DNA of 64,000 bases from Magnolia sinica (taxonomy: Eukaryota; Streptophyta; Magnoliopsida; Magnoliales; Magnoliaceae): assembly GCF_029962835.1 (NCBI RefSeq), contig NC_080589.1, positions 19,613,586 through 19,677,585 on the forward strand. The letters are read 5' to 3'. Positions 5,650 through 62,699 of the stretch are shown piece after piece; position 1 is the first letter of the stretch, and each line of letters opens with the position of its first letter. The notes beneath the pieces were generated by a model, which worked only from the letters and a program-made list of their open reading frames with translations, ran no database searches and was not told the origin of the DNA. The position numbers were made by a program, and so were the translations under genes.

Positions 5650-7229
5650 TGTAACACCCCGTACTTTCCAGTACTCGGGTGTTACCGTATAACCAAGCTT
5701 AGCATAAGTACAAGTCAAGCCTAAGTAAACACTTATGTTCATCCTAGTTAATTTAAATCTGACCGTTGAAAAATAGCCTGCACCTATGTATTTAATGTAC
5801 GTAAAATATTATGAAAATAATATTATGTTAACTAAGCATGATGGATGGTAATTTTACAATGTAAAATTAAATTATAAATATCAACTTAGTATTAAATATT
5901 TTGTACAAAAATTATGAGATATTTTATAAGATGGTATATTATTTAACAAGGTGATTTTAAAAGAGATATTGTACAATTTTCAATCCATATATATGTGTAA
6001 TCCGATATTGTATATTAAGGATTATATATTAATAAATATGTGATTAGTAGCATGTTAATATCAGAAATTATATTTGTATCTATGTATGAGTTTTAATTAT
6101 GTTAATTACATGTAAATCCATATTAATATTAGTATTGGTTAATGAAAGCCTTAAATGGACCCTTGAACCCTTTTAACCGTTGCCGTTTAATCTTGGGATA
6201 ATCCGAGTGTTGGATAAGTGGAAAGCCACCATTGGAGCTAAGAATTAGCTCGTATGGCCCACCTGGACCTTAGATCTATCCCACCCTTGGTCAGGGGCTA
6301 ATGCAGGGCCCACCGAATAAAATGGATGGTGTGGATTTATCCCAAACATCATGCCAGACCCCACTTAGTGATGCGCCTATGCATAACTGGGGTACACTCG
6401 AGGTGCACCAGACTGCCTGCACAGTCAGATAAGCTCTGACCCATGCCTAGCCCAAAATGGAGATTTCTCTCTCCAGCTGCTCCCACCTACGGGCATTTTT
6501 GAAAAACGGAGGGCGCCCGTTTGATGCAAGTGTGGCCCACCATCGGTCACCATCCCAATGATCCAAACCGTCTATCTGATTTAGGGGGCAAGCTTGACCA
6601 AAACCCAACTATCACAACTAAATTTCATGCACGTGTGGGCACACGAGAACTAGCACAAAACAACCCCAAAAACACAAAAAAAAATTCGAAACTAGAAACT
6701 GTCTGTTGCCATGTGGGCAACCGCGTGAGGGGTTTCCCCTCTCATCTCAGCCCTTCACTGAGAGAAAATCTCAGCCATCCAGTGGCTCTCCATGTAGGAG
6801 AGCATTCCCGCCCACAGGGAAGCAAAACCACGACCGGTATTTGCAATACCAGCCATGTGCAAGAACGGTTTCTACCAGATCCAATCTGGAGCGTTTGTTG
6901 TCAATCCGACGGACCAGGAGAAGCCTAGGTCATGTTATAAACATGGGAGGATTGAGCAACAGAAGCTCATTCTCTATTCTTGCAGCCGTTCGAGAGAAAA
7001 TGACCATCACCTTCCACCCTTGAACCCATCACCTAAACCTTCTTCAAGCTTTAGAACGGCTTATCTGGGAATTTTCTAAGACCCACACAAATCATCTAAA
7101 AGGAGCTAATTGGAGGGAGAAGCTGCCATTTGCGATCTGCCATTGGAGTTGTCTCCTTCTTCCTCGTTTGAGCCACACCAAACCGAGTCGATTCGGGCCG
7201 AATCCGAGGTCCCGTGATTCTGCTGGACT

Positions 7230-7790
7230 TGCAGCAGGTGAAAGAAAAGAAGAAAAGAAAGGAAGAAAAGTGAAAGAAGATGGCGGGGGCGTGCAGCTGT
7301 TGTGCCGCACCACCATGCCGCACTTCCAAACCGAGCCACGTCCGAGCTGAACCTGACCCAACCAGGTTGAGCCTAGTTCGGGTCTTATACATCCAGACCC
7401 GTTGCTGAGTGTTGCAAAGAAGAAGAAGAAAGAACTAGAGAGAGAGAGAGAGGAGTCAGGCGGACTCGAGCTAGTGCCGCACTAGCCGTTGCACCAAGCT
7501 ACTCGGGCCAACTGCGGGCCGAGTCTGTCATGTTGGGTCACCCCTGTGATGGGTCCAGCCACGTCTAGACTATCTGGAAGCAGAAAAGAAGGAGATTTGT
7601 GAGAGAGGCGAGTGGGGCTGTCCCGGTCGAGTTAGGTCGAGTTGGCGAGTTTTTTTTTTTTGGGTGTTCCCAACAGCTGGGAAGAAGGAAGAAAAGAGGA
7701 AAAAAAAAGAAGAAGGAAAAGAGTGGAGAAGAAAAGATAGGAGAAGGAGCAATGAGGGAGTTCGGGTCAACTCGGTTTGAAACCGAGTCA
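7230..7790. other. Purine-rich (GA/AAG) segment
   Basis: The plus strand is dominated by GAAGAAAAG-type runs at 7230-7285, 7418-7455 and 7678-7755, with an ACCGAGTC / GACTCGG motif between them. The overlapping ORFs on both strands are products of this bias and are not called as genes. Confidence 0.6.
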
Positions 7791-9616
7791 ACTCACTAAG
7801 TCAGGGCTGACCGAATCCCATGCCATTCAAGGACTTTGCTCGGTCAGCGGATCAACTACATTGGGGCTCCCAATCCCGAGCATAATGCTAGGCACCGTCA
7901 TCAGGTAACCTTTCCAACTGAGTCCAAATCGACTGAGTCGACTCGATGAATCAATGCTTTCTTTCTAAACTAGACATGTCTCATTGTATTAATATACTTG
8001 TTACCACTCTTATTTATTGGGATTGTTAATATTAAATATGACTAGACATTAGTGGAACATGTATGCTAGGACTAATTATTATACACAAGTTTCAATTATT
8101 AAATAATAGTATTTTATTTACCATTCTTAAATATTTGTTATTGGTAGGGGATTATGCCAATTGGGGTCATCATAATGATTATTAACTAATATTAACTATA
8201 ACGCTAATGTTAATAAATATTCTATAATGATTAAGTTAGCACTAAAATTAACTACACAAAATCTAGCCTAGACCTAGACTCTAAGATAGAATTTTAAACC
8301 TAAGTTACTCAAACCCTAGGCCTATACTTAAAACATAAAAGGTAGGTTAAAGTATGAATCTAACCGTAGAATTCCATGATTCATGGTAGATCATGGTATC
8401 CATTATCATGATTGGGATTGATAGTTATGATTTAAAATCATTAGGAAATATTATCATTTCCCTTATGGGATTAGTCAAATACTTATTAATGTAATTATTA
8501 GTGTTAGTCCTTATTGTATTATCATTAGAAAATACCCTATTATTATTACTTGTATTATCTAAGAGATTATTAGTCATTATAAAGATATTAGATAATGTCG
8601 GTATATTTGAACATGAACTTGTGAACCATCGATATTGATATGTAAATTATGACGCTAACACTAATAGTTATCTTATAAATATTAAGATTAAATTGTAACT
8701 GATACACTAACTAAAGTTCAAATCCTAAAGTCTAAATTTAAAACTAAACTCTAAGGTAAAAATCCTGATTTCACATCAAAACCCTAAGAATAAGCAATCT
8801 AAACCCTAGGTTATAGTCTCAACCATAAGGAGTATGTATAACTTGATCTAACCATAGAATTTCATAATTCATGATAGGACCTGATCCTAAGGGCGCAAGC
8901 ACTACTTAGCGATACTAGGAGGCAATTCAAAGTATAAGGTGATGATTCTTCCCCTTGAGCTTTCCATCTTCTCATTAGCTTAAGTTATAGTTTTTATTAA
9001 AAATTATAATTGATATCTCTCTTATAATCACATGTATTAGCTGGTGGAAATTGAATTGCTATATTGCCTGCTTAATGTTCATCCTGTATATTTGTTCATG
9101 CTTGTGGATTATTTGTGTATTGCTTATGGACTTTAAACTGGTACATTAGTGGGAAACCCCCACCTATAAATGTACACCCATACTTGGGATGTAACCCGAC
9201 TGGTTGTGATTAAAATGGACCTTCGACTTAGTGGTTATTGAGTAGTGGTCTAAATGGATCATTGATGTGGGCCTACCATCCAGGGTTATTGTGTCCAAAT
9301 GATTTTTAAAGATGGTCTTTTATCGCATAGTTTTGACACTCGCCCTATGAGGCCTATTTTGATAATTGCCCTACATGGCTTGTTTGATATCGCCCTATGT
9401 GGCTTTGTTCTGATATTTTTCCTATATGGGTTCGATATTTTATACTGTGTAACCATGTGATGGTAAGCCCCATATACTGTAATATGATTGGTCACTAGTT
9501 GACGGGTTTCTATTAAACATCCTAAGATGGTAGCCTCATGAGCCGGGGATGGTGGTAATGGGACACTATGCCCGAGCTGTCGGCCTACGCTGGGCCATGT
9601 GCTCCCCGTAGTGACC

Positions 9617-12824: not shown

Positions 12825-12867
<43 letters not shown>

Positions 12868-13030
12868 ACGCGGGCCATCCATTTTGCATAACTCATTTTA
12901 AGGCATGAGCCCAAAAACGAAGTAGATCCAAAGCTCAAGTGAACCACACCACAACAAATAACAAGATTTGAACGTCTACTGCTGATAACTTCTTGAGGGC
13001 CACAAAAGTCATAAACGAAGATAAAATTTA
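12540..13030. repeat. Fragments of the dispersed GTGGGCC MITE
   Basis: Two partial blocks are present. One (about 12580-12710) has 'TTGAGTTTTAGATCTACCCC'. The other (about 12815-13010) has 'GGGCCATCCATTTTGCATAA', 'AAGGCATGAGCCC' and 'GATCCAAAGCTCAAGTG'. An (AT)n run at 12827-12865 sits inside the second. Confidence 0.6.
12827..12865. repeat. (AT)n microsatellite
   Basis: Uninterrupted AT dinucleotides inside a MITE fragment. Similar AT runs sit inside or beside this MITE family at 33706-33744 and 57717-57750. Confidence 0.95.
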
Positions 13031-14698
13031 TGCTTTACCTTTATCCATGCCCGCATAATCTTATGTATTGGATAACAAGTAAACATCACTACGGGAGCTA
13101 TAATGGCTTCAACTTTCAACAGTTGAGGTTTGTTAGAACCACTGTTTCATGTGTCGTGGTCTACCTATGCATTGGAATTGCCATATTTTTGGACTTGTGC
13201 ATTAAGGGGTCGTTTGGCACCGTGGATTGGAGGGGATTGGAGGGGGTTTCCAACCCCTTGGTTGTTTGGCAGCATAAAGTAACCGGGGGTTTCAAATCCA
13301 AGGGGTTTCCAATCCCCTCTTTGTGGGGGTTTGTAATCCACGGTGAGAGCTTGGATTACACCTAAAATCATTTCAATAGTTACAGGTGTAACATGTGTGT
13401 CACTATACACTATCATTCTATTGGGCACATGGCCCACTAATGATGATCAACACCGTCTAAACATTGTCCATGTAAATCAACATTGTCTAAACATTGTCCA
13501 ACACCATCCAAACATTGTCCATGTAAATCAACGATTAAAAATTATTGGTTAGTCACTCAGACATGATCTTGTGCTTGTGGCCCATCTGAGACTTGGAATT
13601 TCATCATTTTCAGACAAAGCATATATATCAGCGGGCTTATCACAACCATTATATCAAAAATTACATATCTCACTAATTAGAGATATTAAAGTTGATTTAG
13701 TAATTAAATTCAAATCCCTGTAAATATACTAGGGATAAGTACTTTTGGATTAAAGTTGATTCACACTCTAGGATGCTAAACACACCAGGAGGATTGTAAA
13801 TCCAAGGGGTTTCTAATCCTGGGGTTCCGAATCCTAAGGGCGTGTTTGGCCGAACCGATCCCATGGGATTAGGAGGGATGGGATGGGTTTTAAGGTAATG
13901 GGATTTTCATATCCCTAGACCAAAACACTTGCCTGTTTGGATTGTCACAGCCATCCTAGGATCACGTGAGTGATCCTGTTTGGATGGAGATGGGATTGGA
14001 TTTTAATCCAACTGATCACACACCCGTCGCGTTTGGACGTCCGAGTGGTCCCGTACCGGACTAGAGAATCAGTCGTTTGCTGGGAAGGGATGCTCTGGCC
14101 CAAAATGCGTGGGCTACCACACCCAATCCAAATTGTCTGTAGGTAGTGGCCGGTGCTCTGTCGGACCCACAATGATGTACCTGTGTCATCCGAACCATCC
14201 ATATGTTGTACTGTATCATCCAAACCGTCCACAATGATTTGGACAGTTGGAAAAGCAACCCATGACCCGCCTTATGATTGTGCGTACATTTTAGTTTCTA
14301 TGTATGGTCATTTTCGAGATGTGTGCGGGCCACCTAATGCACGGGAGTAGATTTGGTGCTACCTGGTCTTGATCTCAGCCATACACAACATGTTGCGAGA
14401 AATTTGTGCACACGTGTGGATGTTTACAGAATCATATCCGTATGGATGATTATGATATCAACTAATAATGCATCACCTACCATGACTATACTATGTCATG
14501 AAATCATCCAAATTAAAAAAGTGGTTCAAAGTATCAGTGTCAGTAAAACATACCCAACAATATCTATAATTTAATCATAATATACAATGCGAAAAAAACA
14601 ACCATTACTCTAATCAGGAGTGCTAATAATCTCTCTGCGGCTGAAGGGAGGAGATCATCAGTAGACGTGGGCTTGGAAATAGTGGCCCGAGCTATTTG

Positions 14699-15559: not shown

Positions 15560-15735
15560 GGTGGCCTTGCCCAAGATGGTGTGGTCCTTATTGTGGGCCC
15601 ACCTTGATGCATGTATTCTATATCTGTGTTGTCTATCTATTTTTTCAGATCATTTTAGGGCATGAGTTAAAAAATGAAGCAGATCCAAATCTTAGGTGGA
15701 CCATACCTTGGGAAACCGTGATGATCTAACCTTCA
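15560..15735. repeat. Half copy of the dispersed GTGGGCC MITE
   Basis: Contains 'GTGGGCCCACCTTGATGCAT', 'CATTTTAGGGCATGAG' and 'GAAGCAGATCCAAATCTTAG' in the family order. It sits inside the Harbinger-like element. Confidence 0.7.
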
Positions 15736-38600: not shown

Positions 38601-41600
38601 CTTTGGCCGCCCCACCCACACGACAACAAGGAAAGCAACAAAACGAGAGATGAAATCTAAATGAGCTGTGCTTTGTGACGTAGGGATGGATGTGATGAGG
38701 TCAATCACCGTCTTCCTCTAAGGGGATAATTACTCCGAATCCACGGAGCTTCTCTGGACTCCTCATAGAGATTCCTCAAATCCACGAGGGAAAATAAGAA
38801 AATAGAAATAAGTTTTAAGAAATTTGAAAATTAATTGATATATGATTAAAACGAATTTGCAATCCTTTAAATAATGATACCGCTTTTGAAAGTTCTCAGT
38901 TTCGCTATCTCAGCAGTCTGTACCCTTCCTTTTCTTTTAATGAAATTTTCGTTGCCTCTCAAAAAAAAAAAAAAATCCTTTAAATAATGATACCAAACCT
39001 AGGAAGAAGTTTCAGAATCAAACTCCAACTCAAACTCCCTAAAATTCGTGACTTAATATAAATAGTAAACTTACTATTTGTAGATGGTCATGATTCCTAC
39101 TAGACTTCTCATCCGTGTTGTCATATGTGATCATATATGTGGCATATGCAAAAATATGCGATCGTATATTGGCCATGGCACATTGAATTTTTTATTTAAA
39201 AAAACAACGTTTTACCTAAAAAAAAAAGGCTTCCAAATCTCCTCCATTTGCAATATGCTAATTCCAAAACTCTCTTACTCTCTTTCTCTTACATCTCTTA
39301 ATTACAAATGGTCTTATTCTCTCTCTCTCTCTTTCTCTCTCTCGTATTTCCTACTTCCAAGTGATCTTAATCTCTTCCTCTCCTACATTTCCTCTTTCTT
39401 GGAAGTTGGAAGATCAAGATTCAAGCACTTTCAAGTTTCAAGGAAGATAGCTTGTTGATTTTCTACAATAATAAATAAATAGCTTGTTGATTTTGTTGTT
39501 ACTTCTTGTTAACTATATTATTAAATGTCGATGGTTTGATGTTTAATTGATTGTTTAATTGATTTTATCTCTCTCAAATGTATTTTAAATATGTAAAATT
39601 AGTAATCTATTAACTTAGAGAAGTTCTCCTTAGTTTCTTTATATATATATAAAACTTTTTTTTGAAAAAATATATATATTTTAACTTTTCAAAAAATAAA
39701 AAAAATAAAAAAATATGTGGTCGCATATGTGATTGTGCAATCGCATTTGCGCATAGGCATATGCAATCGCACATGATCGTATATGCGATTCGACAACATT
39801 AGTCCTCACAGAGATTCCTCGAATCCACGAGGGAAAATAAGAAAATAGAAATAAATCCTAAGAAATTCAAAAATTAATTGATATATGATAAAAACGAATT
39901 TACAATCCTTTAAATAGTGATACCAAACTTAGGAAGAAGTTTCAGAATCAAACTCCAACTCAAACTTCCTAAAATTCGTGACTTACTATAAATAACAAAC
40001 TTACTATTTATAGATGGTCATGATTTCTACTAGACTTCATGGTTTTTGGCCAAAAATAGTAAGTGTCCTATTTGGCCTAACCACGTTATTCTCATAAATT
40101 TTCTAAGCCCTTTTCATGTTGGGCACAACTCCTGAAACTCAAAGGATGAAGAGTTGTGATCGAACTAAAACTTGCTATAAATAGTAAAAACGAAATTAAA
40201 AAGGATTTTCGACCGTCAATCTGATGGAATCTCGCAAATTCAGCGTGGGCAACCCGGCCTAGTGGGGTTGGTTGACTAAAGTTGCTTCTCCTACCCCAAA
40301 ATCATATATGGTACGTCGAATAACTCATTCTGGTTTGTGAGATATGCCTGTTTTAGGGTTCTGATGGTCCTGATCACTTCCGCCTCCGATCAGGCCTTCT
40401 TTGGTCCATCTTGGATATGAAAGTGTCCGCGACCCGCTCCACGTCACTTTGCCTTTGATGATTCTAGCATTCCTTTCTTTCCAAATCCCCCAAAAGATAG
40501 TAGAAGGGGCCAGCTTCCATAAAACTTTGCCACGATTTTAAAATGGGCCTACCACCCAACCTGCAATAACATCGAATGTGGATTCATGCATAACCCACTT
40601 GATTCTAAAAAGTTGCCAAAAGTGAGACCAAACTACCTGAGTAATCGAACAATGGAGGAAAAGATGACCCCTCAACTCTTCATTGTACTTGCACATGGCA
40701 CACATATCTGGCATCGCCATATTTCTCTTCTTAAGATTATCTATGGTGAGGATTTTGTTTGCTGGGAATGAGGACCTTTCAAATATAGGCACACGAGTGA
40801 CAAACAACTCCTAGATAATAATGCTTGTGCATCAATGATTTAGAGGACAAGGGAAGACCCGAAGACCATTTCCACCGAAGGTATTCCATAATGGTAATTG
40901 TGGTCCCAGTGGCCATTGCCATTACCATTATAATACAGGCTGTAACGGTCGTTACGACCTCTTTTTTTTTTCTTTCTCTTGGAAAAAACATGTTTCATTA
41001 CGCAATGGGCCGTTACATAACTATTTTGGAATACCTTGTTTCCACTCCTTACGATCCTCTTCTTGTTGGTCTAGCCTGATAGTTGCTTAGAGATTCTAGA
41101 AAAGCAGTAAAGTCCGCCACCTCCATGTCACATAAATTTCTCCTCAACCTAACATTCCACACCCCATCCCCCCCGGTGCAAACCTTATCCCTTTCTCAAT
41201 CAGCTGATCCACTTCACTTGGAATGGATGATTTAGCTTGCCTAACTCCCATGCCAATCAAGTTGATAGATTTCCATACCTTCATCTTCGAACCTCCACCA
41301 CCAGTCCCAAGGGGAGACTAGTTCTTTTCCTTTAACCTCCCTAGGCCCAAACACCAGCTGATCCACTTCACTTTGAATGGATGATTTAGCTTGCCCAACT
41401 CCCATGCCAATCAAGTCGATAGATTTCCATACCTCCATCTTCAAACCTCCACCACCAGTTCCAAGGGGAGACTAGTTCTTTTCCTTTAACCTCCCTAGGC
41501 CCAAACACCCATCCTTTATAGGCCTCTGGATAATCTACCAATTTACAAGGTGAAATTTATGTCCCTCCTCTCTCCCTTCCCATAAGAAATCTCTCTAAAT

Positions 41601-44600: not shown

Positions 44601-46767
44601 AAGAAGAGGACCTTTACAACCAATTTTGTCATGTGTGATCAAATAAGATAAGCGATTATGCCATCGCATATGCCATTTGGACCAATGTACTGCATATGCC
44701 ATGGTGGTACATGTGGTTATTATGCCATTGGGGCTTATGCAGTTGCACATAGAAGTATGCGACCACATAAGCCATGGTTATCTGACCATTAGGACTTTTT
44801 ATTTTGCTTCATCTCACTGTTGTTTTTTGTTTTAAAGACTTCGTCTCACTTTTTTGCTTATAAATAGATGCTCTCACCCCTTTATTTTCACAACTCTATT
44901 ACTCTCTCCCTCACTCTAATACCCTCGTCTCTTAATCTCTCTCGTCTTTAACTCTCTCTTAAAATGGCATTAATAAAAATTGTGTTGTTTTTGTTTTCCC
45001 ATATTTTTAGTATATGTGTCCCTTTGAGTAGTTGTTAGTTGACTTGTTATTGTCTAATAATCTAATAAAACTATAAAAAAATTCCCTACACTTGTAGTAT
45101 GTTTACATAAATTCCCTACACAAATTTTCATTTGTGGGGATGTGCGATTATGCCATAACATAAGCGCATTGCCCTGTTGGGTGACATAAGATTGTTTATT
45201 CCATTTGATAACATTATTTACAATGATGAGGAATAGTTAATGTCCTTGGGATAACCTGAGAGTTGAACCTGGCCGCTACTCACTCACCTCTCTACCATAG
45301 GTTGCTATGACGAGCTCTCTTCAAACCTTAAGAAACACCCCTCCACCCCCCATCTCCAGATACTGCAAATTTTTTTTTTTTTTCTTTCTATTTTCTTTAC
45401 TTTGGGAGATTCGTCCTTCAAACTCAAGATGTCAACCAAACATGTCCCATTAATGATACTGCACTTACCACCATCCCTTAACACCGATAGCCCTTGTCCG
45501 TCTCCATTCACTTTTCCGGTGCACATCAATTCCTTCTTGCCTCTCCGGATCATCGCACATGCCCTGAGAAAACCTAGACTTCTAATTACCTGGGGATTAG
45601 CAGTAACCTTAGAAGAACACGTATCCCAACCCCGGTCCTTGAAGCACTTCTCATTGCTGTGAGAGTCAATCTCACTGGATGGAATGACAATCTCATGATA
45701 AGCATCTCTTTCTTCATGGGTATATTCTCGGCAGCACCTTCATGCATCCTAATTGTCGCCTAGAGAATTTATAAGATTATAACACATGTCCCCACCTTTC
45801 AAGACCTCGACACGTCACCTTGCTTTTATTGGAAAATTGATAAATGATAATCCTATGAGTATCCTTCGCCTTTAATGAGATTCTCAATTTGACCAATATC
45901 TAGGATGCCAATTGACACCAAACTTGCCTTTGAGAGAAAATCACCACTGCCATATTTGGGCCACGTGTCCCCCGATTGCTTTTCCCTCTACAAACTCTCT
46001 TGTCCTTTCCCCGGATCCTCGCATTGGTTTTGCCATTGCAACTCTCCCTTCTCCGACTATCCTCCGACCTCCTCAAAACATCGAGATTCTTCACCCATTG
46101 ATGCCTTGATCCCTAGGAGCGGATTAGGTGAGACCTTGAACTCACCTAAGATAGTGTGGCCCCTATCGTGGGGCCCACCTTGATGTATGTATTTTGTATC
46201 CACATTGTCCATCCATTTTTCTAGATAATTTTAGCATATTATCCCAAAAATGAAGTAAATCAAATTATTAGGTGGACCCTAACATAGGAAACAATGGTGA
46301 TTGACCAAGCTCATGCCATTCTGTCATGTACCATAAATATATTTAATTACCATCAAACTTAATTATTATTTTTTAATTTTCTTATTAAATAATTTAATAC
46401 CTAGGTAGAAACGACTATTAAACAACGCTTAAATATTCTAATACATTTCGTCTGTGGGAGTTTTGTGCTCTTATCGCCGGTCCCGATGCATGAGGGTTTG
46501 CGTCAAGTTGCCAGTTGGTTACAAACTTATGCCATAACTTCCATCATTTGGCCAGATATCAATTGTGATCAATGTGTTCCGTATTCGTTACGATACGGCC
46601 GTAAAGGTTGATACGTATAGGTAAAGGCCATGATCATTACATGATATGGGGGTGAAATGTGGCAGTTGCTTTTTTGGGACCGTATCGGCCGTTAGGGGTT
46701 ATAACGACTATTACCCTTGTAACGGTTAAAAAATGGCCAATTCTTTTTTCTATGTAAATCCATTTTT

Positions 46768-46807
<40 letters not shown>

Positions 46808-49800
46808 ACTTTTCTCATTCTAAAAACTTTATTACATTCTACAACAAATTTTGACCACTCGTACTATAGTTTTTAAGATTAAGATAGTAGATTGAAGCAA
46901 TTTGAGCAAGGTGTCCCGTATCGGTATCGGTTGGCGTAACGGTAACCTCCAAAACCGATACGGATACGGGGGCGTAACGGTGATACGGGGGCGTAACGGC
47001 CCGTAACGGCGCAAAATTTTTTTTTTGCCAAAAAAATATGGATTAAATCCGGAATATTCTAAGCATTCCAAATATGCATTCATTTATAAATTGGAACATG
47101 TTTATGGTGGTGTAACGGTCCACTCTTTAGTGAGAAGTTGTATCGGACTGTCTGATGAATTTATGAACCAGATAACCTGAATTTGACTACAAAATTCATA
47201 TATTTAATTTTCTAACTATCTACTATCAATGATAGATATATTAGAATGAATGTAATATGAAAATATCTTACATTTAGGTGTTTGCAATTATTTTTGAGGG
47301 CCAAAATTCATGCATAAATAGAAAAAAATATAAAATGGCACCCCAAATATGTAAAATGCACATTAACATGTTCTACTATGATTAACACATCATATGGCAT
47401 CATTAAAACAGCAAGAGAATCATTAAAAAATGATTTTTCGAATTTTCAAAAAAAGGGCCGAAATAAATGCGTAAATAGAAAAAAATAAAAAATAAAATAT
47501 AAAATGGCACCCCAAATATGTAAAATGCACATTAAGATGTTCTAATATGATTAACACATCATATGGCATCATTAAAACAGCAAAAGAATCATTAAAAAAT
47601 GATTTTTCAAATTTTCAAAAAAAGGGTCGAAATAAATGCGTAAATAGAAAAAAATATAAAAAAATATAAAATGGCACCCCAAATCTGTAAAATGCATATT
47701 AACATGTTCTACTATGATTAACAAATCATATGGCATCATTAAAACAACAAAAGAATCATTAAAAAATGATTTTTCGAATTTTCAAAAAAAGGGCCAAAAT
47801 AAATGCGTAAATAGAAAAAAATATAAAAAATATATAAAATGGAACCCCAAATCTGTAAAATGCACATTAACATGTTCTACTATGATTAACACATCATATG
47901 ACATCATTAAAACAGCAAAAGAATCATTTGAAAATGGTTTTTCGAATTTTCAAAAAAAGGGCCAAAATAAATGCGTAAATAGAAAAAAATATTAAATGGC
48001 ACCCCAAATCTGTAAAATGCACATTAACATGTTCTACTATGATTAATACATCAAATGGCATGATTAAAACAGCAAAACAACCATTAAAAACTGATTTTTC
48101 GAATTTTAAAAAAAGGGGCCAAAATTCATGCGTAAATAGAAAAAAATATTAAAAAATTATTAAATGGCACCCCAAATCTGTAAAATGCACATTAACATGT
48201 TCTACTATGATTAACACATCATATGACATGATTAAAACAGCAAAATATATTAAAAAAAGTATAAATACCTATTTTTGACGAATTTTTGAAAAATGGCCCA
48301 CCGAGCTTTGATTCAAAAAAATCTATAATATAATGTGTTTTTCTATCAAATACCTAGCTAAGGTTGGTTAAAATTAGTAGTAGAAGGAGTTAGAAACAGT
48401 TTGGAAGCAAGAGGTTTCAAAAAAACAGCAAAAACAGAGCTTAAAAAAAAAAAAAAAAGTTACAGTTTCGGGCCCGTAACGGCCCGTTTCGGGCCGTTAC
48501 GCCCGTATCGGTCCCGTATCGGCTGATACGGGTACAAAAAATCGAATCGGCCGTTTCGGCCCCGAAACGGGTAACGATTCGCACCGTTACCGTTACGTAT
48601 CGGCCGATACGGCCAATACGTAACCGATTTGGCATACCATGAATTTGAGTGAATAGAAGCTTCGAGGGTCATTTAAAAAAAAAGTGGTATATATGCATTT
48701 TTTTTTTCGATTTTTAATTCTAATGCTTGATTGTGATGTGTAAGCATTAGAGACACATAACCATGTTCATAAATTCACCAAACAACCCAATAGAGCACTC
48801 ACCAAAGAGTGGACTGTTATGTTTCCATAAACATGTTCAAAACAAAAAATGAATATAGATCTGAAATATTTACATTATTCTAGATTTTCTAGATATATTT
48901 TTAGAATTTTTCAGCAATAAAAAAAAAAAAAAAAAAACCATTACAGGAGTTGTAATAGTCGTTACATCCCTGTATTGGCCGTTCTGACCAATACCCATAT
49001 CGGTAACGGTGGTGAACATTATGGCCTCCATTACTGATATGGAATACTTGTTTGTGATATACGAAAATGACTGCTACTGTAACATTATATTTCTGTCTAA
49101 TATCTATCATTAGTGCATGAAGGTGGTTATAAATTATAACACCATTAAAAAAGGTGGTTACAACATATTATTATCGTTATTATTTTTTGAGTGGCAATGT
49201 ATTTGTTATTTCAACCCCATAATGTTATGGGGGTTCCCCGCAATTATTGTAATGCTGATATATTGGGCTTTATATTGCCATTATAAGAACCATTGTTTTG
49301 ATTGAATTTTTTGTAAGGAAATATACAATGGTTTGGCCAAGGAAAACAAGGCTTTTTGTTTGGCTATCAATCTTCATGGTATGGCCCATGTGTAATTGGT
49401 ACAACCAGTTGAGCGCCTGCATCTTGGATGTACCCAAATGATCTATGGATCTCGCATAGGCCGACCTCATATATGATTGCTGCACCTGGCATCATATAGT
49501 ATGTCCAAGGTGTCTCGTATCCGTTACAATATGCCCATAAAGGCCGATATATATAGGTAACGGTCATGACCATTACACGATACGGGGGTGAAATGGGGCA
49601 ATTGATTTTTTGGAACTGTATTGGCCGTTGCGGTGGACGTAAAGGCTGTTACGGGGCATAATGATCGTTACCCCTGTAACGGTCGAAAAACGACCACTTT
49701 TTTTTTTTAAAATTTAAATCTATTTTCTCCCCTTTTTATACTTTTCTCATTCCAAAAACTCTCTTAAATCATTTTACAATAGATTTTGACTGCTCTTACT

Positions 49801-51449
49801 ATAGTTTTAAATATTAAAATCGTAAATTGAAGTGATTTGGGTCAATAGAATCTCCGATGGCCCTTTTTTTTCAAAAAATTGAAAAAGTAGTATTTATGCA
49901 AATTTTCTTATTTCTAGTTTTAATGCTTGATTGTGATGTGTAAACATTAGATACATATAATCATGTTCACAAATTCACTAGACAGCCCGATGCAACACTC
50001 CCACTAAAGAGTGGACCGTTACACTACCATAAACATGTTTTTTTTTTAAAAATGAATACATATTTGGAATATTTACATTATTCTTGATTTTCTAAATATT
50101 TTTTCAGAATTTTTCAGATAAAAGAAAATTTTCAACCGTTACGGTGGTCGTAACAGTCGTGATGCCCCCATATTGGCCGTTACAGCCGATACCCGTATTG
50201 GTAATGGTGGTGAGCGTCACGGCCACCGTTACTGATACGAAATACCTTGAGTATGTCTCTTCTTCTTCTTCTTCTATATTTTTGTAAGATGACCATTAAT
50301 GGCAAGCGTGAGCCTTGACTGTTCCATTGAGCAGGTGAGAGATGAAGGTTGATGCCTGTTGGGTAGCTGATCCTAAAATTTTTGCCAATCTACAATTTGA
50401 GATCTTGGGTTCTGAGTCCATACTTAACTATAGAGAAAAACTGCTGTTTAAAAGCCGAACCCATAGTTCTGGGAGAAAGGCTAAAATGATGATGATTAAG
50501 TGCTTTGGTTATTAAAAAAATTGGTGAATTCTTTTGGATTTCTGTATGAATGTGGGGTTTTCTTCTACTTTCAAAATCAAAGGCTGATGTCATTCACAAC
50601 AAAGAAATAAAATACTATCATTCCTTTTCACCCTTCTCTCGCTTGACATCAACATATCATGGCCCTTTCATTCTTTGAAAATTTGCTGTTTCTTTTTTAC
50701 TCGTTATCTTTTCTGAATAAAATAATTATTGAAACTTCTGACTTTTGAGCAGGCGACACCTGTAATGTCTACTCTGAAATTGGTCTCACTTCCCACTCAG
50801 AGGAGGAGCTTTCCTTCAGTCCGTTTGCAGCCAGTTCCACTTCGCTATCGGGTTTCTTGTGCTGTATGATTCTCTAATTCTGCATCTATTTCCATTTTAA
50901 CTTTTCTTTAGCGATGCATGGTCTAAGCCATTCAGCAGTGTCAGAAGAATCAGAACCTATGACAGCTTTGCTTGAGCACAATTTATGGCAGCTCCTTTCA
51001 AAGGAAACAGAAACATAGACACAGTATGACATGTAGTATGGCAGAACTCATGCAGTGGACATGGATATAATTTTAATAGCACAAATGGATGATTGAATCC
51101 AGCTACTCAGCCATTCATCATGTCCCATGCATGTGTGCCCATGGACATCCGTTCTCTCGTATTGATGCTTTTACTATACAAACGTGCGTGCACGCACATG
51201 TAATTCTTTGTTTGATTTGAGATCTGTCCCTCACACTTGATTGCCACCAAGTGTTGCAAGGACATTTGTAAGCCGGCCCCGCCCCCCCGCCCCCCCCCGG
51301 GCGCATACCTTTGGACATCCATTCTCTCATATTGATGCTTTTACTATACAAACATGCGCGCGTGTACACACACGTGTAATTCTTTGTTTGATTTGAGATC
51401 TGCATCCCTCACACTTGATTGCCACCAAGTGTTGCAAGGACATTTGTAA

Positions 51450-51521
<72 letters not shown>

Positions 51522-51742
51522 GATATGATATGATATGGACACCTTGTACAACACTGCCCCCCCGGCACATACCTTTGGACATCTGTTCTCTCATATTGAT
51601 GCTTTTACTATACAAACATGCGCACGCATACACACACATGTAATTCTTTGTTTGGTTTGAGATCTGTATCCCTCACACTTGATTCTCACCAAGTGTTACG
51701 AGGACATTTGTAAGCATATGCATGGACACCTTGTACAACAAT

Positions 51743-51813
<71 letters not shown>

Positions 51814-53881
51814 CACACACACATTTTCAAGAGTTCTTGTAATGTGAGCATGCAATTCATCCACCTTGTCAATTGTAATGTGGGCCAAGGTATTCAATTA
51901 ATGGTAATAGACCATAACGGCCACTGCCATTACCATTATGATATGAGCTGTAACAGCCGTTGCGGCCTTTTCTTACGGACCATTTTTCTGTAACGGCCGT
52001 TCTGGCCACGTAACACATAATGGTGTCCACTGTTACCATTACGTAACCCTTTTTGCATACCCCTTGCCCCTTGAAAATAAAACCAGCCAAGCACATCATT
52101 TAATTATCAGACCTGGCACACCTCCCTGTCCATTAAAAATAAATTTCTCACACATTGGCATATTTTGCCGAAAAAATGACAAGCTTGGGAATTACGTGTA
52201 TGTATACTTAGCAAGCAAATCTGCTAGTTTTTCCTTTTGGCAAATATGATGGCGCTCTGCCTTTAGCAACCATAGGAGGTTCAGCACTTGAATCCACTGC
52301 TGCCAGATCACCCAAAAAATGTTTCCTTTCAGAAATTGCATGCATATATAATTGCTAGTTAGCATTAACATTGCCATTATGTTGTAGCCAGAGTGACAAA
52401 GGATTTGTAATTTCCTCAACAGGCCAAGCCAGAGACTGTGGATAAGGTTTGTGAAATAGTGAGGAAACAGTTGGCACTACCAGCTGACTCTGCTGTCACA
52501 GGGGAATCCAAGTTTTCTCACCTTGGTGCCGATTCACTTGATACGGTACTCATGGCCTTTAACCCTAATCAATTTTTATTTACCAGGATTGCGAATCCTC
52601 TTTCCTTGCCTTGCTTCCAAGAGGTTTTCTTGTTCCATGTGTGTATAATGTAGCCCACAACATGCCACCACTTATGCTAATGTTTCACATGGGTGAGGGA
52701 TCCCAGTTTTCCTTCACATGAGACCTGCCGTGGGATGCCTTGGCCCAAAAATCAGCAAAAATATAGTGGCCTGTTGAGTGACTGCCTTGTACAACATGTG
52801 GGCTTTGCTACATGTAATCTCTTATCCATATGAAGAAAAAGTATAATGAAGTCCTTATTGTTAATACTGATAGTTTTTAGTGTTGTGATACTCCCGCTAT
52901 ATTTTTTTACTGCCATCTGACTTGACCTTTAATGTATGATTCCTTCTTGGCCTTCTCCTTCTGAGTATTGAACCAATGGGCCAATATCTGGATCTCAGAT
53001 ATAAACATGGAATTTACTTTAAAAGAAAGCCATTACTGACCAAATATATACTTGTTCTTCAGAATGCGAGAGAACTTAGATTTGTACTCCTTACTACCAT
53101 TCCTCTTTTAATTTCTGAGTAGATGGTCCATCATTTTTAATGTTTGTAGCTCCTTTTTTTTTTTTCCTTTAATAAATTCATCATTGCCATTCAAAAGAGC
53201 TCCAGGCAGCAGGTGTCATTATTCTTATGTTCACTCCTGAAATGATTAATTATCTATGAAGTAAAAAGCCAAAATATCTTGAAATATTGGATAAGAACCC
53301 ATCCTGATCGTGCTGTTGGTGTTTCCACTGAGTAATGGTTGGTAGGGCAGTATGGAAAATGGAATCTGCATTAAGTTGGCTTATGTTTTGCTGCCTTTTC
53401 TGCCCTGAAACATGACCGGTTCTTATGTTAACCCCAATCTGGCGGAGCACATCCTCTCCACCTCAGGAACTGGTGAAGCAACCAAACATGTCCTTCTGTT
53501 TCGAAATGACAAATTGCAGTAAATTTCTAAATTCCAGCACCGTTGATCTTGGTAGGGGATTGATCTATCCTTCCATTTTTTGGGTACAACTTTCCTTTGT
53601 GAAAATATTAATTTTGAATGGTTCAATAGAAGAACTATTCCCTCTCTTTTCATGCCTTGCGTATGCGTACTATTAGCTTTTGATGCATGGTAATGGATGT
53701 TGTTGGCATATGTGCATTGAATTCTTAATTTTCTACTGTGTTGCATGAAAAGGTGGAGATTGTAATGGGACTTGAGGAGGCATTTGGGATCAGCGTAGAA
53801 GAAGATAGCGCCCAGAGTATCACAACAGTGCAGGACGCCGCAGATCTGATCGAGAAGCTTGTTGAAAAGAATGATGGTTAA
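35589..53881 (+). CDS. ACP: Plastid acyl carrier protein (four coding exons)
   Basis: Joins 35589-35657, 50753-50863, 52423-52545 and 53753-53881 into a 143-residue precursor; all introns are phase 0 with GT..AG ends. Residues 1-60 form a Ser/Arg-rich plastid transit peptide ending 'RYRVSCA'. The mature protein starts '[17 protein letters not shown]' at residue 61 and has 83 residues, the normal plant size. 'LGADSLDT' holds Ser98 (mature Ser38, codon 52534-52536), where 4'-phosphopantetheine attaches. '[13 protein letters not shown]' is helix II, followed by '[13 protein letters not shown]'. The protein carries acyl chains for type II fatty-acid synthase in the plastid stroma. The start at 35589 gives the standard MAA(V/T) N-terminus. 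Odd point: intron 1 is about 15.1 kb and full of transposons. I see no break in the coding sequence. Confidence 0.96.
35667..35696. repeat. (CT)n microsatellite at the start of intron 1
   Basis: About 15 CT units begin 9 bp after the 5' splice site. CT-rich DNA in the leader and first intron start is common in highly expressed plant genes. Confidence 0.9.
36120..37110 (+). repeat. Degenerate repeat in intron 1, about 140 bp unit
   Basis: At least five copies of a unit with 'ATTGTCCAATCAAAGTGATT', a 'GAAATATG.GCAATCAAGG' segment, 'GACGGTCCA' and 'TTTTATTG..AATTGAT'. Anchors lie near 36145, 36410, 36540, 36690, 36820, 36945 and 37075. A (TA)n run (36609-36631) interrupts one copy. Confidence 0.7.
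37111..38400. other. Intron 1 stretch, nothing recognised
   Basis: AT-rich, with a few words from the preceding repeat near 37430-37720. The minus-strand ORFs at 37719-37919 and 37958-38173 are Phe/Lys-rich and show no family pattern. Confidence 0.45.
38757..39107 (+). repeat. Direct duplication, copy 1 (contains a mini-LINE insertion)
   Basis: From 'CTCATAGAGATTCCTCAAAT' to 'GATTCCTACTAGACTTC'. Copy 2 at 39801-40042 matches it apart from point changes and the insertion at 38882. Confidence 0.85.
38882..38973 (+). mobile_element. 5'-truncated LINE insertion with 21-bp target duplication
   Basis: About 92 bp ending 'GAAATTTTCGTTGCCTCTC' and a poly(A) run (from 38961). It is flanked by identical 21-bp sequences at 38861-38881 and 38974-38994, 'AATCCTTTAAATAATGATAC' plus C. 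A short 3' piece, A-tail and long TSD are the hallmarks of target-primed reverse transcription. Confidence 0.92.
39116..39798. mobile_element. Non-autonomous element with GCATATGCGATCGCATAT-rich ends
   Basis: Begins TGTTGTCATATG and ends CGATTCGACAACA, a short inverted terminal repeat. Both ends are packed with palindromic ATGCGATCGCAT / GTGATCATAT words, and the middle is CT-rich and AT-rich. No matching target duplication was found, so the exact ends are provisional. Confidence 0.5.
39801..40042 (+). repeat. Direct duplication, copy 2 (empty site)
   Basis: Same sequence as 38757-39107 without the 113-bp insertion and duplicated target, so it shows the pre-insertion state ('CAATCCTTTAAATAGTGATA'). 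Confidence 0.85.
40538..40807 (-). pseudogene. LINE zinc-binding domain (zf-RVT) remnant
   Basis: An 89-residue frame with '[20 protein letters not shown]', then the C..C..H....H/C pattern '[18 protein letters not shown]', then '[11 protein letters not shown]'. This domain closes ORF2 of plant LINEs. The upstream side is cut by the 162-bp hAT-like insertion at 40877. Confidence 0.85.
40877..41038. mobile_element. 162-bp hAT-like MITE
   Basis: Inverted ends GAAGGTATTCC and GGAATACCTTG; inner words GTAACGGTCGTTACG and GGCCGTTACA. Flanked by 8-bp duplications TTTCCACC (40869-40876) and TTTCCACT (41039-41046). It sits in the LINE's zinc-binding region. Confidence 0.82.
41201..41508 (-). repeat. 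Tandem duplication in the LINE, 154-bp period
   Basis: Two adjacent copies (41201-41354 and 41355-41508) beginning CAGCTGATCCACTTCACTT and ending AGGCCCAAACACC, differing at only a few positions. Confidence 0.92.
42392..42574 (-). pseudogene. LINE reverse transcriptase remnant
   Basis: '[20 protein letters not shown]' and '[13 protein letters not shown]' followed by '[14 protein letters not shown]' match the LIPK..YRPISL..YKI..K and Q..F...R blocks of LINE RT. The RPISL block reads CPISL. Flanking RT blocks are present only as broken text. Confidence 0.85.
43555..44150 (-). pseudogene. LINE endonuclease remnant
   Basis: '[20 protein letters not shown]' followed by LGG corresponds to the GDFN..R...EK.GG block of APE-type LINE endonuclease; the metal-binding D is E here. 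Further upstream '[11 protein letters not shown]'-like text and '[12 protein letters not shown]' near 44110-44150 fit the start of the domain. A tandem duplication of about 116 bp (43591-43822) disrupts it. Confidence 0.7.
43591..43822 (-). repeat. Tandem duplication in the LINE, about 116-bp period
   Basis: Copies start TCCAAGCTTCTCATACCCG (43591) and TCCGAGCTTCTCTTACTTG (43707) and both run through 'AGAAATTAAATGATCTGA'. They are more diverged than the 154-bp pair, so the event is older. Confidence 0.85.
44620..45215. mobile_element. Second element rich in GCATATG / GTGATC words
   Basis: The first 150 bp have 'GTGTGATCAAATAAG', 'GCGATTATGCCATCGCATAT' and 'GCATATGCCATGG'. The end has 'GTGCGATTATGCCATAACAT'. 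The middle carries 'CTCTATTACTCTCTCCCTC'. The layout mirrors 39116-39798, though ends and target duplication are not clear. Confidence 0.45.
45300..46140 (-). pseudogene. Possible LINE ORF1 remnant
   Basis: Basic minus-strand text such as '[20 protein letters not shown]' and '[18 protein letters not shown]', and a degraded zinc-knuckle-like '[12 protein letters not shown]' near 45600-45660. Position and strand suit ORF1 of the LINE below it. The match is weak. Confidence 0.4.
46150..46325. repeat. Half copy of the dispersed GTGGGCC MITE
   Basis: 'GTGGGGCCCACCTTGATGTA', 'ATCCACATTGTCCATCC' and 'GAAACAATGGTGATTGA' in family order. Confidence 0.75.
46907..48641. mobile_element. hAT-like element nested in its own family, 1735 bp
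   Basis: Begins CAAGGTGTCCCGTATCGG and ends TTTGGCATACCATG. Flanked by a perfect 8-bp duplication AATTTGAG (46899-46906, 48642-48649). The ends carry arrays of GGCCCGTAACGG, CGTATCGGCCGATACGG and CCCGAAACGGG. The interior is six tandem copies of a roughly 168-bp AT-rich unit. Confidence 0.9.
47285..48255 (+). repeat. Tandem array, six copies, about 157-168 bp period
   Basis: The anchor word GCACATTAA (one copy GCATATTAA) recurs at 47359, 47527, 47694, 47862, 48019 and 48187. Each unit runs 'ATGTTCTACTATGATTAACA', 'CATTAAAACAGCAAAA', 'TTTTCGAATTTTCAAAAAAA', 'GCGTAAATAGAAAAAAAT' and 'ATGGCACCCCAAAT'. The long ORF at 47714-47995 is only a translation of the array. Confidence 0.93.
49506..50249. 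mobile_element. hAT-like element, 744 bp, perfect 8-bp TSD
   Basis: Begins CAAGGTGTCTCGTATCC and ends GATACGAAATACCTTG. Flanked by AGTATGTC on both sides (49498-49505 and 50250-50257). The layout and interior match 46570-49050 minus its nested insert, so it shows that site in the empty state ('ATTGAAGTGATTTGGGTCAA'). Confidence 0.93.
50753..50863 (+). CDS. ACP: ACP exon 2 (rest of transit peptide)
   Basis: Encodes 37 residues from '[20 protein letters not shown]' to 'YRVSCA'. Acceptor TTTTGAGCAG|GCG and donor GCT|GTATGA. The intron just before the mature AKPET start matches the usual plant ACP gene plan. Confidence 0.93.
51144..51712 (+). repeat. Triplicated repeat in ACP intron 2
   Basis: Three copies of a unit of about 130-140 bp, 'GGACATCCGTTCTCTC..ATTGATGCTTTTACTATA' through 'CACCAAGTGTTGCAAGGACA', start near 51143, 51313 and 51577. 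C-rich (51279-51300) and TG/GA microsatellite spacers lie between them. ORFs translated as Ser-Leu or His-Thr runs here are artefacts. Confidence 0.9.
51453..51515. repeat. (TG)n-(GA)n compound microsatellite
   Basis: TG run at about 51453-51484, then GA run to 51515, then GATAT repeats. Confidence 0.95.
51743..51824. repeat. (TC)n-(AC)n compound microsatellite
   Basis: TC run to about 51775, then CA run to about 51822 with one CGCA interruption. It is the reverse complement type of the 51453 microsatellite, about 300 bp away. Confidence 0.95.
51886..52066. mobile_element. Short hAT-like MITE in ACP intron 2
   Basis: Begins CAAGGTATTCAATTAATGG and ends GCATACCCCTTG, with inner words CATAACGGCC, GCTGTAACAGCCG and GTAACGGCCG. 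It belongs to the same family as 40877-41038. No clear 8-bp duplication was found. Confidence 0.65.
52423..52545 (+). CDS. ACP: ACP exon 3 (mature N-terminus and pantetheine site)
   Basis: Encodes 41 residues from AKPET to DSLDT. Acceptor CCTCAACAG|GCC and donor ACG|GTACTC. Holds the serine that receives phosphopantetheine. Confidence 0.96.
52546..53752. other. ACP intron 3, nothing else recognised
   Basis: T-rich, GC-poor intron sequence without inserted repeats that I can recognise. A T-run at 53153-53169 is the only simple repeat. Confidence 0.7.
53753..53881 (+). CDS. ACP: ACP exon 4 (C-terminal half and stop)
   Basis: Encodes 42 residues from [11 protein letters not shown] to EKNDG, then TAA (53879-53881). 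Acceptor CATGAAAAG|GTG. The acidic helix II and III residues that dock fatty-acid synthase enzymes are intact. Confidence 0.96.
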
Positions 53882-57290: not shown

Positions 57291-57488
57291 AGATGAATAA
57301 GGCTCATTGGGCCCAAATCCATGTAATAAGGCTCATAGGGCCCATTTATGTTTTTACTATTATAAATAAGTGGGTGTTTGATTTTTTTAGTTGGTTGTGT
57401 AAATACTTGAAAATCGGTAAATGATTATTTACTCTGGCGACAGCACCGTTTTTGTCACTAAACCCAAAGCGGAGCACACAATTTTTTT

Positions 57489-57712
57489 TATAGGCCCACT
57501 GTGATGTATGTGATTAATGCAAGCCATCCATCTAGTCTGCAAGCTCATTTTAGGGCATGAGCCGAAAAATGAGGTAGATCCGAAGCTCAAGTGGACCACA
57601 CCAAAGGAAATAGTGGGATCTGAACATCTACCCTTGAAAAATTCTTTGGCCCCAAAAGTTTTGGATCGAGCTAATATTTGTGTTTATCCATTTTTTGGCC
57701 CAAAAAATTTGC

Positions 57713-58784: not shown

Positions 58785-59216
58785 TTGTGGGGCCCACCGT
58801 GATGTGTGTATGGCATCCATCCCATCCATCCATCCATTTTGCCAGCTTATTTTTAGAGCATGAGCCCAAATTTGAAGCATATCCAAAGCTCAAGTGGACG
58901 ACATTATAAGAAACGGTGGGGATTGAATGCCTACTGTTGAATACTGGGCCACAGAAGTTTTGGATCAAGCTGATATTTGTGGTTTTCCTTCGTCCATGTC
59001 TGTGTGACCTTATGAACGTGTTGGATGACAAATAAAAATCACTGTGGGCCATAGGATGGTTTCAAATGTGGACGTCATTATCCCCACTGTTTCCTGTGGT
59101 GTGGTGCACTTGATCTTTTGATATGCTTCAATTTTGGACTAATAACCAAAAATAAACTGAAAAAATGGATGGACGGTATAGATAAAACACAAACATCACG
59201 GTGGGCCACACAGAGG
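58785..59216. repeat. Best copy of the dispersed GTGGGCC inverted-repeat MITE
   Basis: Starts 'TGTGGGGCCCACCGTGATGT' and ends with its inverse 'ACATCACGGTGGGCCACACA'. Inner inverted pairs include 'CCATCCATTTTGCC' with 'TTTTTTCAGT..' and 'AAACGGTGGGGATTGAATGC' with 'TTATCCCCACTGTTTCCTGT'. The centre is 'AAGTTTTGGATCAAGCTGAT'. It is non-coding and about 430 bp long. The superfamily is unassigned because no target duplication is clear. Confidence 0.8.
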
Positions 59217-59994
59217 CTTTACACCAGTTGGGTCGCCATACAACATGTGAGGAGCATAACTTAGTGTGAGGAGAAATTTACGACTGTAGACCCCACCTTT
59301 TATCCAGCTGTTTTTACGAAACAATACAAACTTAGTTTTGGAACTTTGACCTGCTCGTACGGACAGCGAATTTGAGGACGAAAATACCCCTCCCTTCCTT
59401 TCGGAGACGAGCGCTGACGCTCCAACCGAGAGTTGTACGAACGGCTCAAAAGAGATCAAAGTTACATGGCCCCACAGCTATGTATTTGTTATATCCACAA
59501 CTTTCATCCATATTTCGAGATCATTTCGGAGAATTATCCAAAAAAAAAAAAAAAAAATCATATCCAAAGATCAACTGGACCACACCACAAAGAGCAGCGG
59601 GAAAATTGATTTTCACCGTTAAAAATTTTGTAGGGCCCACTATAACATTTATTTTCCATCCAATCTATTCATAAGGTCACAAAGGCCTAGATGAAGAGGA
59701 AAAACAAATTTCATAATGATCCAAAACTTCTGTAACCCCTAAAAGGGTTTCAATGGTAGACGTTCAATTCCCCACTGCCTTTTACAGTGTGGTCCTCTTG
59801 ATAGTTAGATCTATCTTATTTTTTGTCTCAAGCCTTAATATGAGCTCGCCAAATAGATGGACGGTTTGGATATAACACAGTCCTCATGATGGGACCCATA
59901 AAAGCAACACACCAAAAAAAAAAAAAAGAACCCAGCATTTTTCTATCCCTTGCCGTCACGATGGGACCCATAAAAGTTCTCCTAGCTATAAAAA

Positions 59995-61035: not shown

Positions 61036-61906
61036 GTGGAAATGTACGGTCTTGATTCAGGCCTACTACAGATTCAATTTCGGTAGAAATGCCAGCTCAA
61101 TTTCCCGACCAAAAGTACACAAAAAGCTCCAATGACGAACGATGAATTTCAGAGTTCATTCGATTCAACCGAGAATTAATTCGGTTCGAACGAACCCAAG
61201 CTCAGTGTGACCGAAATCGAACAACTGCTGAAACAAAATCCTGTCATGATTCGAACTCAACTTCGGTTCGGCTAATGCATAACGCGGCCGAGTAAATATG
61301 AGGCAGTTCAAGGAGTGGAGCCAATGTCATATGTGGTACGTTAAGTAAATCATTCTAGTTTAGGAGATGTGCTTGTTAAATAAATAGGCAAAGAAATGAA
61401 TTAAAAGATAGAAAAATATTTTTATAGACTTATATATACATATTTACATAATTATGTACTAGAGAAAAATGTAAGGGATAAAAAGTTTTAAAAAAATAAA
61501 AATAAAAAAATAAAAAAATCTCCCTAACAGTCGCGGCAGTATTTTTAAAGTCTTTTTTTTTTTTTTTTTGCTTTGTTGCTTTCATGAGTCCCATCATGAG
61601 GTCTGTGTTATATCCAAACCGTCTATCTATTTCGCGAGCTCATATTAAGGCTTGAGACGAAGAATAAGATAGATCTAACTATCAAGTGGACCACACTGTA
61701 AAAGGCAATGGGGAATTGAACGTCTACCATTGAAACCCTTTTAGGGATTATAGAAGTTTTGGATCATTATGAAATTTGTTTTTCCTCCTCATCGAGGTCT
61801 TTCTGACCCTATGAATGAACTTAGATGTGGAGGATTTCTCACAAACATCACAGTGGGCCCCCAAAAAGTTTTATGGCCTCCAAAAAGTTTTTAATGGTCG
61901 ACGCTC

Positions 61907-61994
61907 ATTCAACACTGTTTCCTGTAATGTGGTACACTTGAGATTTGCATATTCAACACTGTTTCCTGTAATGTGGTACACTTGAGATTTGCAT
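61907..61994. repeat. Perfect 44-bp tandem duplication
   Basis: 61907-61950 and 61951-61994 are identical, starting ATTCAACACTGTTTCC and ending GAGATTTGCAT. It is a recent duplication inside a MITE copy in the right arm. Confidence 0.97.
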
Positions 61995-62699
61995 ATAACT
62001 CATTTTTGGTCTCATACCATAAAATGATGTGGAAAAATATATGGACGGCATGGATGAAAAGCATACATCATGGTGGGGCCCACGGACCACCGACCATCCG
62101 CCATTGGCTGGTGGCAGGGGGAGTACCCAATCCGTTTCCGTGAAAGGAGGGTATTTTCGTCCCCAAATTCGCTGTCCGTGCGAGCAGGTCCAAGTTCCCA
62201 AACGAAGTCTGTATTGCTTCATAAAACCTGCTGCATAAAAGGTGGGGTCCACATTCCTAAATTTCTCTAGTGTGAGAGATCTTGATCGTACATCAAGTAG
62301 GGTACATTTTGGACGTCCCATGGACCAAAATGGGTGGTCAGAAAAAAAAAAAAAAGGGTCCAATGTTCCAAATTTACTCTACATTTGGGTCACAGTTGAT
62401 GAGTGTATTTTCATGATTTTTGTAGATGGCATGCTAACCTCGCTTGCTATCTGATGAGTGGTCCAGATCTCTAATATGTGTAGATGGCTGCCTTTAGCAC
62501 TTGTTCTTTCAGATGAGAGCCCCATTACTGGATCACTACCCAAAGAGAGGAGTGATGCTGCATTTGCTGGGGATATTCGCCTTCCAGTAGCAACACGTTC
62601 CACTCCATCTAGACTGATTCGCCTTCGCCTTCAGCTGGCAATACATGACCTGTTCTTTTAGCATTTAATACGACCGAAAAAGACGGTCCATAAATTTTT

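Follow-up and report, generated by a model that had tools for sequence, protein, structure and literature searches.

An odd GC-rich feature in introns of a Magnolia sinica gene proved to be part of a hAT transposon system, with coding, internally deleted, filler-containing and short classes in one genome. The window analysed is a stretch of 64,000 nucleotides (G000:C17:19613586-19677585; the genome comprises 1.84 Gb in 127 contigs), and the five elements found in it are very probably non-autonomous members of a hAT cut-and-paste family, whose coding relatives measure 5.4-6.0 kb and whose transposase would bind a short word clustered at the element ends. Membership of the hAT superfamily, first suggested by a sequence-only reading of the window, follows from the 8-bp duplications that flank many copies together with coding relatives that have the same ends and hAT domains. 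The family is real and possibly unnamed; its superfamily, anatomy and probable mechanism are of a known kind and its biology follows that of Ac/Ds closely, and given this closeness the surprise is modest.

Five related elements beside exons of an acyl-carrier-protein gene

The five related elements listed in Table 1 were confirmed at the coordinates of the sequence-only reading. They adjoin exons of an acyl-carrier-protein gene, with three coding stretches at about 50.75-50.87, 52.41-52.54 and 53.75-53.87 kb that we take to encode a plastid acyl carrier protein (ACP); no exon was located in the part of the window upstream of 40.8 kb, and the placement of the first four members in intron 1 is accordingly tentative. 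The same reading had the members flanked mostly by 8-bp duplications, which is the case for four of the five (two perfect, two with seven of eight positions matching), none being recognisable around 51886-52066. After subtraction of the 1735-bp insert and of one copy of its duplication, the outer element at 46570-49050 measures 738 bp and agrees with the 744-bp copy at 553 of 702 aligned positions (78.8% identity); as judged by this alignment, the 744-bp copy is a paralogous empty site for the nested insertion. The 181-bp and 162-bp members share 75.6% identity along a stretch of 90 bp. At least 39 other partial relatives of the 162-bp member, with 73-84% identity, are present in the genome (40 of 358 candidates scored); most of these 39 match its first 80-120 bp, and none reaches its right end. 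As to the shared CAAGGT-type ends that had been described, GGCCGTTACGGCC occurs six times in the window with one mismatch, always inside members (0.02 expected), but the window contains no exact copy of it; CGTATCGGCCGATACGG has one exact occurrence, at 48596-48612.

Two further repeats were noticed beside the members. Shortly after the 162-bp member, at 41201-41508, a 154-bp sequence is duplicated head to tail with 96% identity. In the interval 51142-51842, a unit of up to 164 bp recurs in two or three diverged versions, accompanied by long GT/GA and CT/CA microsatellites forming complementary arms.

Table 1. Family members, their parts and neighbouring coding stretches, in positions of the window
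Feature	Position	Strand	Remarks
Short old member, 162 bp	40877..41038	.	Duplication TTTCCACC/TTTCCACT at 40869-40876 and 41039-41046 (7/8)
Older 744-bp-class member, interrupted by nested insert	46570..49050	.	Duplication ATTGTGAT/TTTGTGAT (7/8)
Type A element, 1735 bp, inside 46570-49050	46907..48641	+	Perfect duplication AATTTGAG at 46899-46906 and 48642-48649 (8/8)
Type A left word array	46907..47026	+	12 GWWWCGG/CCGWWWC words, first 120 bp
Type A interior tandem repeats	47297..48257	+	Spacing 157-169 bp
Type A right word array	48442..48641	+	21 words, last ~200 bp
744-bp member of discrete non-coding class	49506..50249	.	Perfect duplication AGTATGTC (8/8)
ACP coding stretch, transit-peptide part	50755..50865	+	Approximate limits
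Short old member, 181 bp	51886..52066	.	No recognisable duplication
ACP coding stretch with GADSLDTV phosphopantetheine site	52411..52540	+	Approximate limits

Genome-wide copies and their target duplications

The genome contains 1592 occurrences of GGCCGTTACGGCC (10 for its reversed control), 695 of the exact 18-bp left end CAAGGTGTCCCGTATCGG and 356 of the right end TACGTAACCGATTTGGNATACC, the reversed controls of the latter two giving none. Among 30 left-end loci, the first ~100 bases after CAAGG were much alike in 29 (L017 is without part of them), and the sequence preceding CAAGG was unlike between copies, with the exception of L027 and L029, which have the same flanks. Pairing of exact left and right ends on two contigs yielded 28 credible elements from 100 left ends, 24 of them of 1.55-1.95 kb and four of 5.36-5.54 kb; for another 70 of the 100, no exact right end lay within 20 kb, and two pairs, spanning 6080 and 16603 bp, were excluded as mispaired. 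The 744-bp copy, which had been proposed as a query, retrieved at least 39 other places with 81-89% identity, 40 of 2631 candidates having been scored; 34 of these 39 were full length, with at most 3 bp missing at either end. One further match, left uncounted, is an inverted fragment of 55 bp that lies within another copy.

Duplications of 8 bp had been put forward as the sign of a hAT family, and they were observed with at most one mismatch in 27 of 30 genome copies (18 of 20 from the 744-bp class and nine of ten larger ones). The 20 copies of the 744-bp class, chosen from the 39 other places and all reaching query positions 1 and 744, showed 11 perfect duplications, seven with one mismatch, one with two and one with three. 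When flanks were swapped, 2 of 380 pairs had at most one mismatch, and both fit the single duplicated locus among the 20, namely L089 and L090, which share flanks; L090 was left out of the CpG-transition and 48-locus duplication-base counts. The ten larger flank pairs were picked from the 28 credible end pairs, L029 being dropped from duplication and CpG counts because its flanks are those of L027; the duplication was perfect in nine and without match in one. L070, described below, has the perfect duplication GTGTAGAG.

The base composition of the duplications and the element tips were compared with hAT patterns. At duplication position 2, T was more frequent than any other base (18 of 29 when one strand is read; 56 of 96 on both strands of 48 loci), matching the hAT duplication pattern nTnnnnAn. 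Terminal inverted repeats of hAT elements start with the pattern YARNG, which fits the left ends (CAAGG) and both ends of the 744-bp class (CAAGGTGTTCCGTATC and CAAGGTATTCCGTATC); among right ends of the larger elements, CAAGG, CAGGG and TAGGG fit it, but CATGG, present in the window copy and in further elements, and CCAGG, present in L071, depart from it. Dense subterminal repeats occur in CACTA and Mutator elements too, which would speak for placing the family in one of these or in another superfamily with long or subterminal repeats. However, Mutator or CACTA duplications are of 9 or 3 bp, those found here are of 8 bp, and the coding copies have hAT domains; Mutator and CACTA were rejected on these grounds, and an origin outside the hAT superfamily is hardly conceivable.

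Members may also lie close together. L069 contains three within 9.7 kb (481-2177, from 4899, and 6461-8338), one of which has a further end variant, CAAGGTGTTCCGTAACGG. Clustering of members as in the window may be common.

Transposase-bearing relatives

A search for a transposase-bearing relative with the same ends, recommended by the sequence-only reading, was successful: elements of 5.4-6.0 kb were found elsewhere in the genome. L071 (5979 bp) and L072 (5460 bp) have family ends and the perfect duplications ATCACTAC and CTTGGGAG, respectively, and L073, of about 5.42 kb, has family ends and the duplication TTGGTCAA/TTGGTCAG. Pfam searches detected DUF659 and Dimer_Tnp_hAT (35 bits) in L071, in whose scanned pieces no BED finger was seen. 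Three separate pieces of L073 matched, respectively, zf-BED (20.8 bits, barely above the cut-off of 20.6, the same piece giving the unrelated BST2, below its own cut-off, with a slightly better E-value), DUF659 (189.9 bits, E 2.6e-56) and Dimer_Tnp_hAT (47.9 bits versus a cut-off of 21.4, E 1.2e-12). The best solved-structure match of the C-terminal piece was Hermes transposase (E 0.0013); the DUF659 piece had no transposase match in the PDB.

The DUF659 exon is present at 80-100% identity in at least 150 places of the genome (150 of 2632 candidates scored). Among testable transposase places, 6 of 40 had an exact right end where side and strand would lead one to expect it, versus 0.06% by chance, and 6 of 20 had an exact left end so placed, versus 0.11%. 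The transposase is contained in three of the four elements of 5.36-5.54 kb (L072, and two by end placement; the check covered three) and in the type C copies L029 and L028 (the latter being L071 in its full-length reading), the check covering two of the three copies of that type. In L071, L072 and L073 the reading frame is disrupted.

A genome search with the Pfam hAT dimerisation domain, for which 150 of 2766 candidates were scored and 30 loci read, brought up other hAT families and was given up. The family word was absent from 29 of these 30 loci and occurred twice in L043, in sequences that extend only 1.5 kb from the dimerisation domain in each direction and may leave out an element end.

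Two side observations concern the transposase exon. Open frames of at least 600 amino acids, with no stop within the match, were present at 15 of the 150 places, so that coding copies would appear to exist. Five places lie within 0.28 Mb at G000:C1 43.59-43.87 Mb, and this cluster, together with the shared flanks of the type C copies L027 and L029, suggests that a segment with a transposase-bearing copy was duplicated.

Deleted, filler and short classes

The 30 sampled left ends lead into three unrelated interiors: type A, with an interior like that of the 1735-bp window copy (14), type B (13, L070-like, some diverged) and type C (3). The 1735-bp copy matches L072 over its positions 1-393 at the left end (94%) and over positions 391-1732 at the other end (87%), the tandem repeats of 157-169 bp spacing included, and it is without the transposase region found in the 5.4-kb elements. 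In transposase-bearing elements, too, these tandem repeats are present, in the stretch that separates the right word array from the coding region. Type A is thus, as read from these alignments, an internally deleted form of the coding element, and since its interior is common to all 14 sampled copies, one deletion probably founded the class.

Type B, represented by L070, retains about 320 and 177 bp of the family ends around unrelated filler, and seems, from its sequence, to have captured another repeat of the genome. The 744-bp class is short, non-coding, of discrete length, bounded by terminal repeats and present in many copies, features that fit a MITE; it is a separate, older, discrete short class. 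The 744-bp copy resembles L072 by only 74% at one end and 68% at the other; its class may therefore once have had another partner, unseen today.

The filler of L070 (747-1434) resembles a repeat scattered through the window, with longer matches of 66-78% and occurrences at 58787-59888, 61590-62083, 57486-57683, 12850-13047, 15593-15715 and others.

One clustered word at the element ends

The members had been described as dense in two words, GTAACGG and GTATCGG, and the density was verified: 54 GWWWCGG/CCGWWWC words lie in the 3568 bp of members versus 29 in the other 60,432 bp of the window, a ~31-fold enrichment, 35 of the 54 being in the nested 1735-bp copy. That the ends are word-rich held for the nested copy and for one end of the outer element, where the number of CG-WWW-CG exceeded that of all 200 shuffles, but not for the other old copies, which were not outstanding, the 162-bp copy being marginal (7 of 200 shuffles). 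The left 200 bp of type A contain 6 CG-WWW-CG versus 0.28 in shuffles, and its right word array contains 12 versus 0.79.

Across 30 left ends, the commonest NNNNCGG contexts were GTAACGG (117), GTATCGG (105), GATACGG (100), GTTACGG (20) and GTTTCGG (10), the main exception being AATCCGG/ATTCCGG (21 each). CpG pairs at distance 5 numbered 87 versus 22.9 in shuffles in ten ends of five elements, a comparison that overstates independence because the ends are related to each other, and in 81 of these 87 pairs the three enclosed bases were A or T. Other distances were raised less (11: 51, 9: 47, 14: 41, 20: 40, 6: 36 and 16: 35, versus 22-23); the old window copies are outside this pooled count and inside the per-end table. 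With CpGs 5 apart around an A/T spacer, the two words are better regarded as spellings of a single one, (C)CG-WWW-CG(G), than as a degenerate two-word code, and the idea that they are separate binding sites was dropped after the spacing count.

Counting the words by position, as had been advised, showed that they are nearly confined to the ends, packed in the terminal ~120 and ~200 bp. L072 has 11 in its first 120 bp, 18 in its last ~200 bp and three elsewhere, and between position 400 and the last 207 bp there were 0-1 words in each of the five elements over 1.7 kb. By analogy with known hAT elements, the word is probably a binding site of the transposase.

The encoded transposase comprises a BED-like zinc finger, DUF659, a hAT dimerisation domain and a low-complexity tail. 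In the mechanism that we favour, the (C)CG-WWW-CG(G) word clusters would be bound by the BED fingers of several transposase protomers. Many of the words are near-palindromic CCG-WWW-CGG double sites and may, by analogy, be paired BED sites. Word binding would pair both element ends; the enzyme would then cut at the CAAGG tips and join the element to a staggered 8-bp target, generating the 8-bp duplication. Transposase from the coding elements would mobilise the short classes in trans. The window copies have the ends but not the enzyme: one belongs to a class without the transposase region (46907-48641), and four are old short derivatives.

CpG decay in old copies

In 21 copies of the 744-bp class, transitions affected 380 of 1981 CpG positions (0.19), 310 of 4060 other G/C positions (0.076) and 179 of 9314 A/T positions (0.019), so that the CpG rate was tenfold the A/T rate; on this excess of transitions, the decay looks like methylation-driven loss. 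Younger left ends showed the same order (0.076, 0.046 and 0.024). Their transversions were more frequent at A/T (51 of 1139) than at CpG positions (9 of 794), an excess that is probably due to misalignment beside a run of T. The majority sequence of the 744-bp class has 16 and 13 words in its ends and each of the 21 copies has fewer, which suggests why CG-WWW-CG counts of the older window copies for the most part stay within those of shuffles. Transition rates of CpGs were equal inside (0.193) and outside words (0.189), so the idea that words are protected in old copies found no support; this equality indicates no selection on the words there, as is expected of dead copies, and it lends word function no support.

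The decay bears on a different reading of the words, in which they serve the host or the gene, for instance as CpG-dense nuclei from which methylation and silencing proceed, or as part of the promoter of the transposase gene. Every CG-WWW-CG word contains two CpG sites, plus CHG sites in CCG/CGG, and the CpG transition excess given above speaks for such a role as well. Against this, the words stand at both ends and also in short classes, where no promoter is needed, they are nearly absent from the interior of all five elements over 1.7 kb, and they are missing from nearly all of the 30 other hAT loci within the 1.5 kb around the domain; a role for host or gene is therefore improbable, and recognition by the transposase is preferred.

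A more speculative extension, which we consider doubtful, is that the transposase reads paired CCG-WWW-CGG as a double BED half-site, that binding depends on CG/CHG methylation, and that the words act as a counter or clock. If so, the 24-35 words per young element would constitute a counter reversibly blocked by methylation, and deamination would remove words singly, leaving a readable mutational clock of the capacity of each copy to move. An exact CpG spacing of 5 and a spacer of almost nothing but A/T give the family an unusually clean word array, on which the relation of BED-finger recognition to CpG methylation and to loss of mobility can be tested.

Comparison with known systems

The organisation found has two components, a coding element and internally deleted, filler and short classes with its ends. 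In anatomy, these classes correspond to the Ds-del (internally deleted), Ds2 (filler) and Ds1 (short) elements that accompany the coding element in maize Ac/Ds (PMC3260210). Duplications of 8 bp, ends of ~200 bp and multiple short repeats ending in CGG are further points of likeness, the subterminal AAACGG repeats of Ac being bound cooperatively by its transposase (PMC3260210). Hermes, the house fly hAT element whose transposase best matches the C-terminal piece, has BED domains that bind clustered subterminal repeats, and a quasi-palindrome of two cooperatively (PMC10368747), an arrangement that may have its counterpart here; by contrast, its repeat is AAG(T/C), not CGG-based, and it is an animal element. 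The CGG words are also reminiscent of the CGG-preferring, BED-containing domains of the CGGBP type: hAT-derived BED domains usually prefer CGG or CGC, and for those of the CGGBP type, matches to the motif lie in the subterminal parts of the elements to which they correspond (PMC8097297). That study covers animals and fungi, in contrast to the plant family described here, and the word 'plant' does not occur in its main text (PMC8097297).

The family may already be named in Repbase, Dfam or a library of repeats of the species, only the label being missing here. High copy number and chromosome-size contigs would make it likely that repeat annotation has clustered the family, possibly as an unnamed hAT or MITE. 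However, no paper on it was found in the open-access literature, in titles and abstract openings among the matches listed, and a search of that literature by literal words gave no transposon title among the matches listed. On balance, an existing name falls a little short of an even chance, and we treat the family as possibly unnamed.

Several features distinguish the family from Ac/Ds. Its main word is GWWWCGG (GTAACGG/GTATCGG), often as CCG-WWW-CGG, in contrast to AAACGG hexamers, and AAACGG is a minority here (GAAACGG eight times in six right ends). Its terminal repeat is CAAGGTGTCCCG, whereas Ac has its own 11-bp terminal repeat. With these termini and main words, assignment to the Ac/Ds family proper was rejected. 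The DUF659-type transposase, the interior tandem repeats of 157-169 bp and the old, CpG-decayed 744-bp class are further differences. Finally, CAAGGTGT/CAATGTGT may resemble the terminus of the Arabidopsis hAT element Tag1, which starts with CAATGT.
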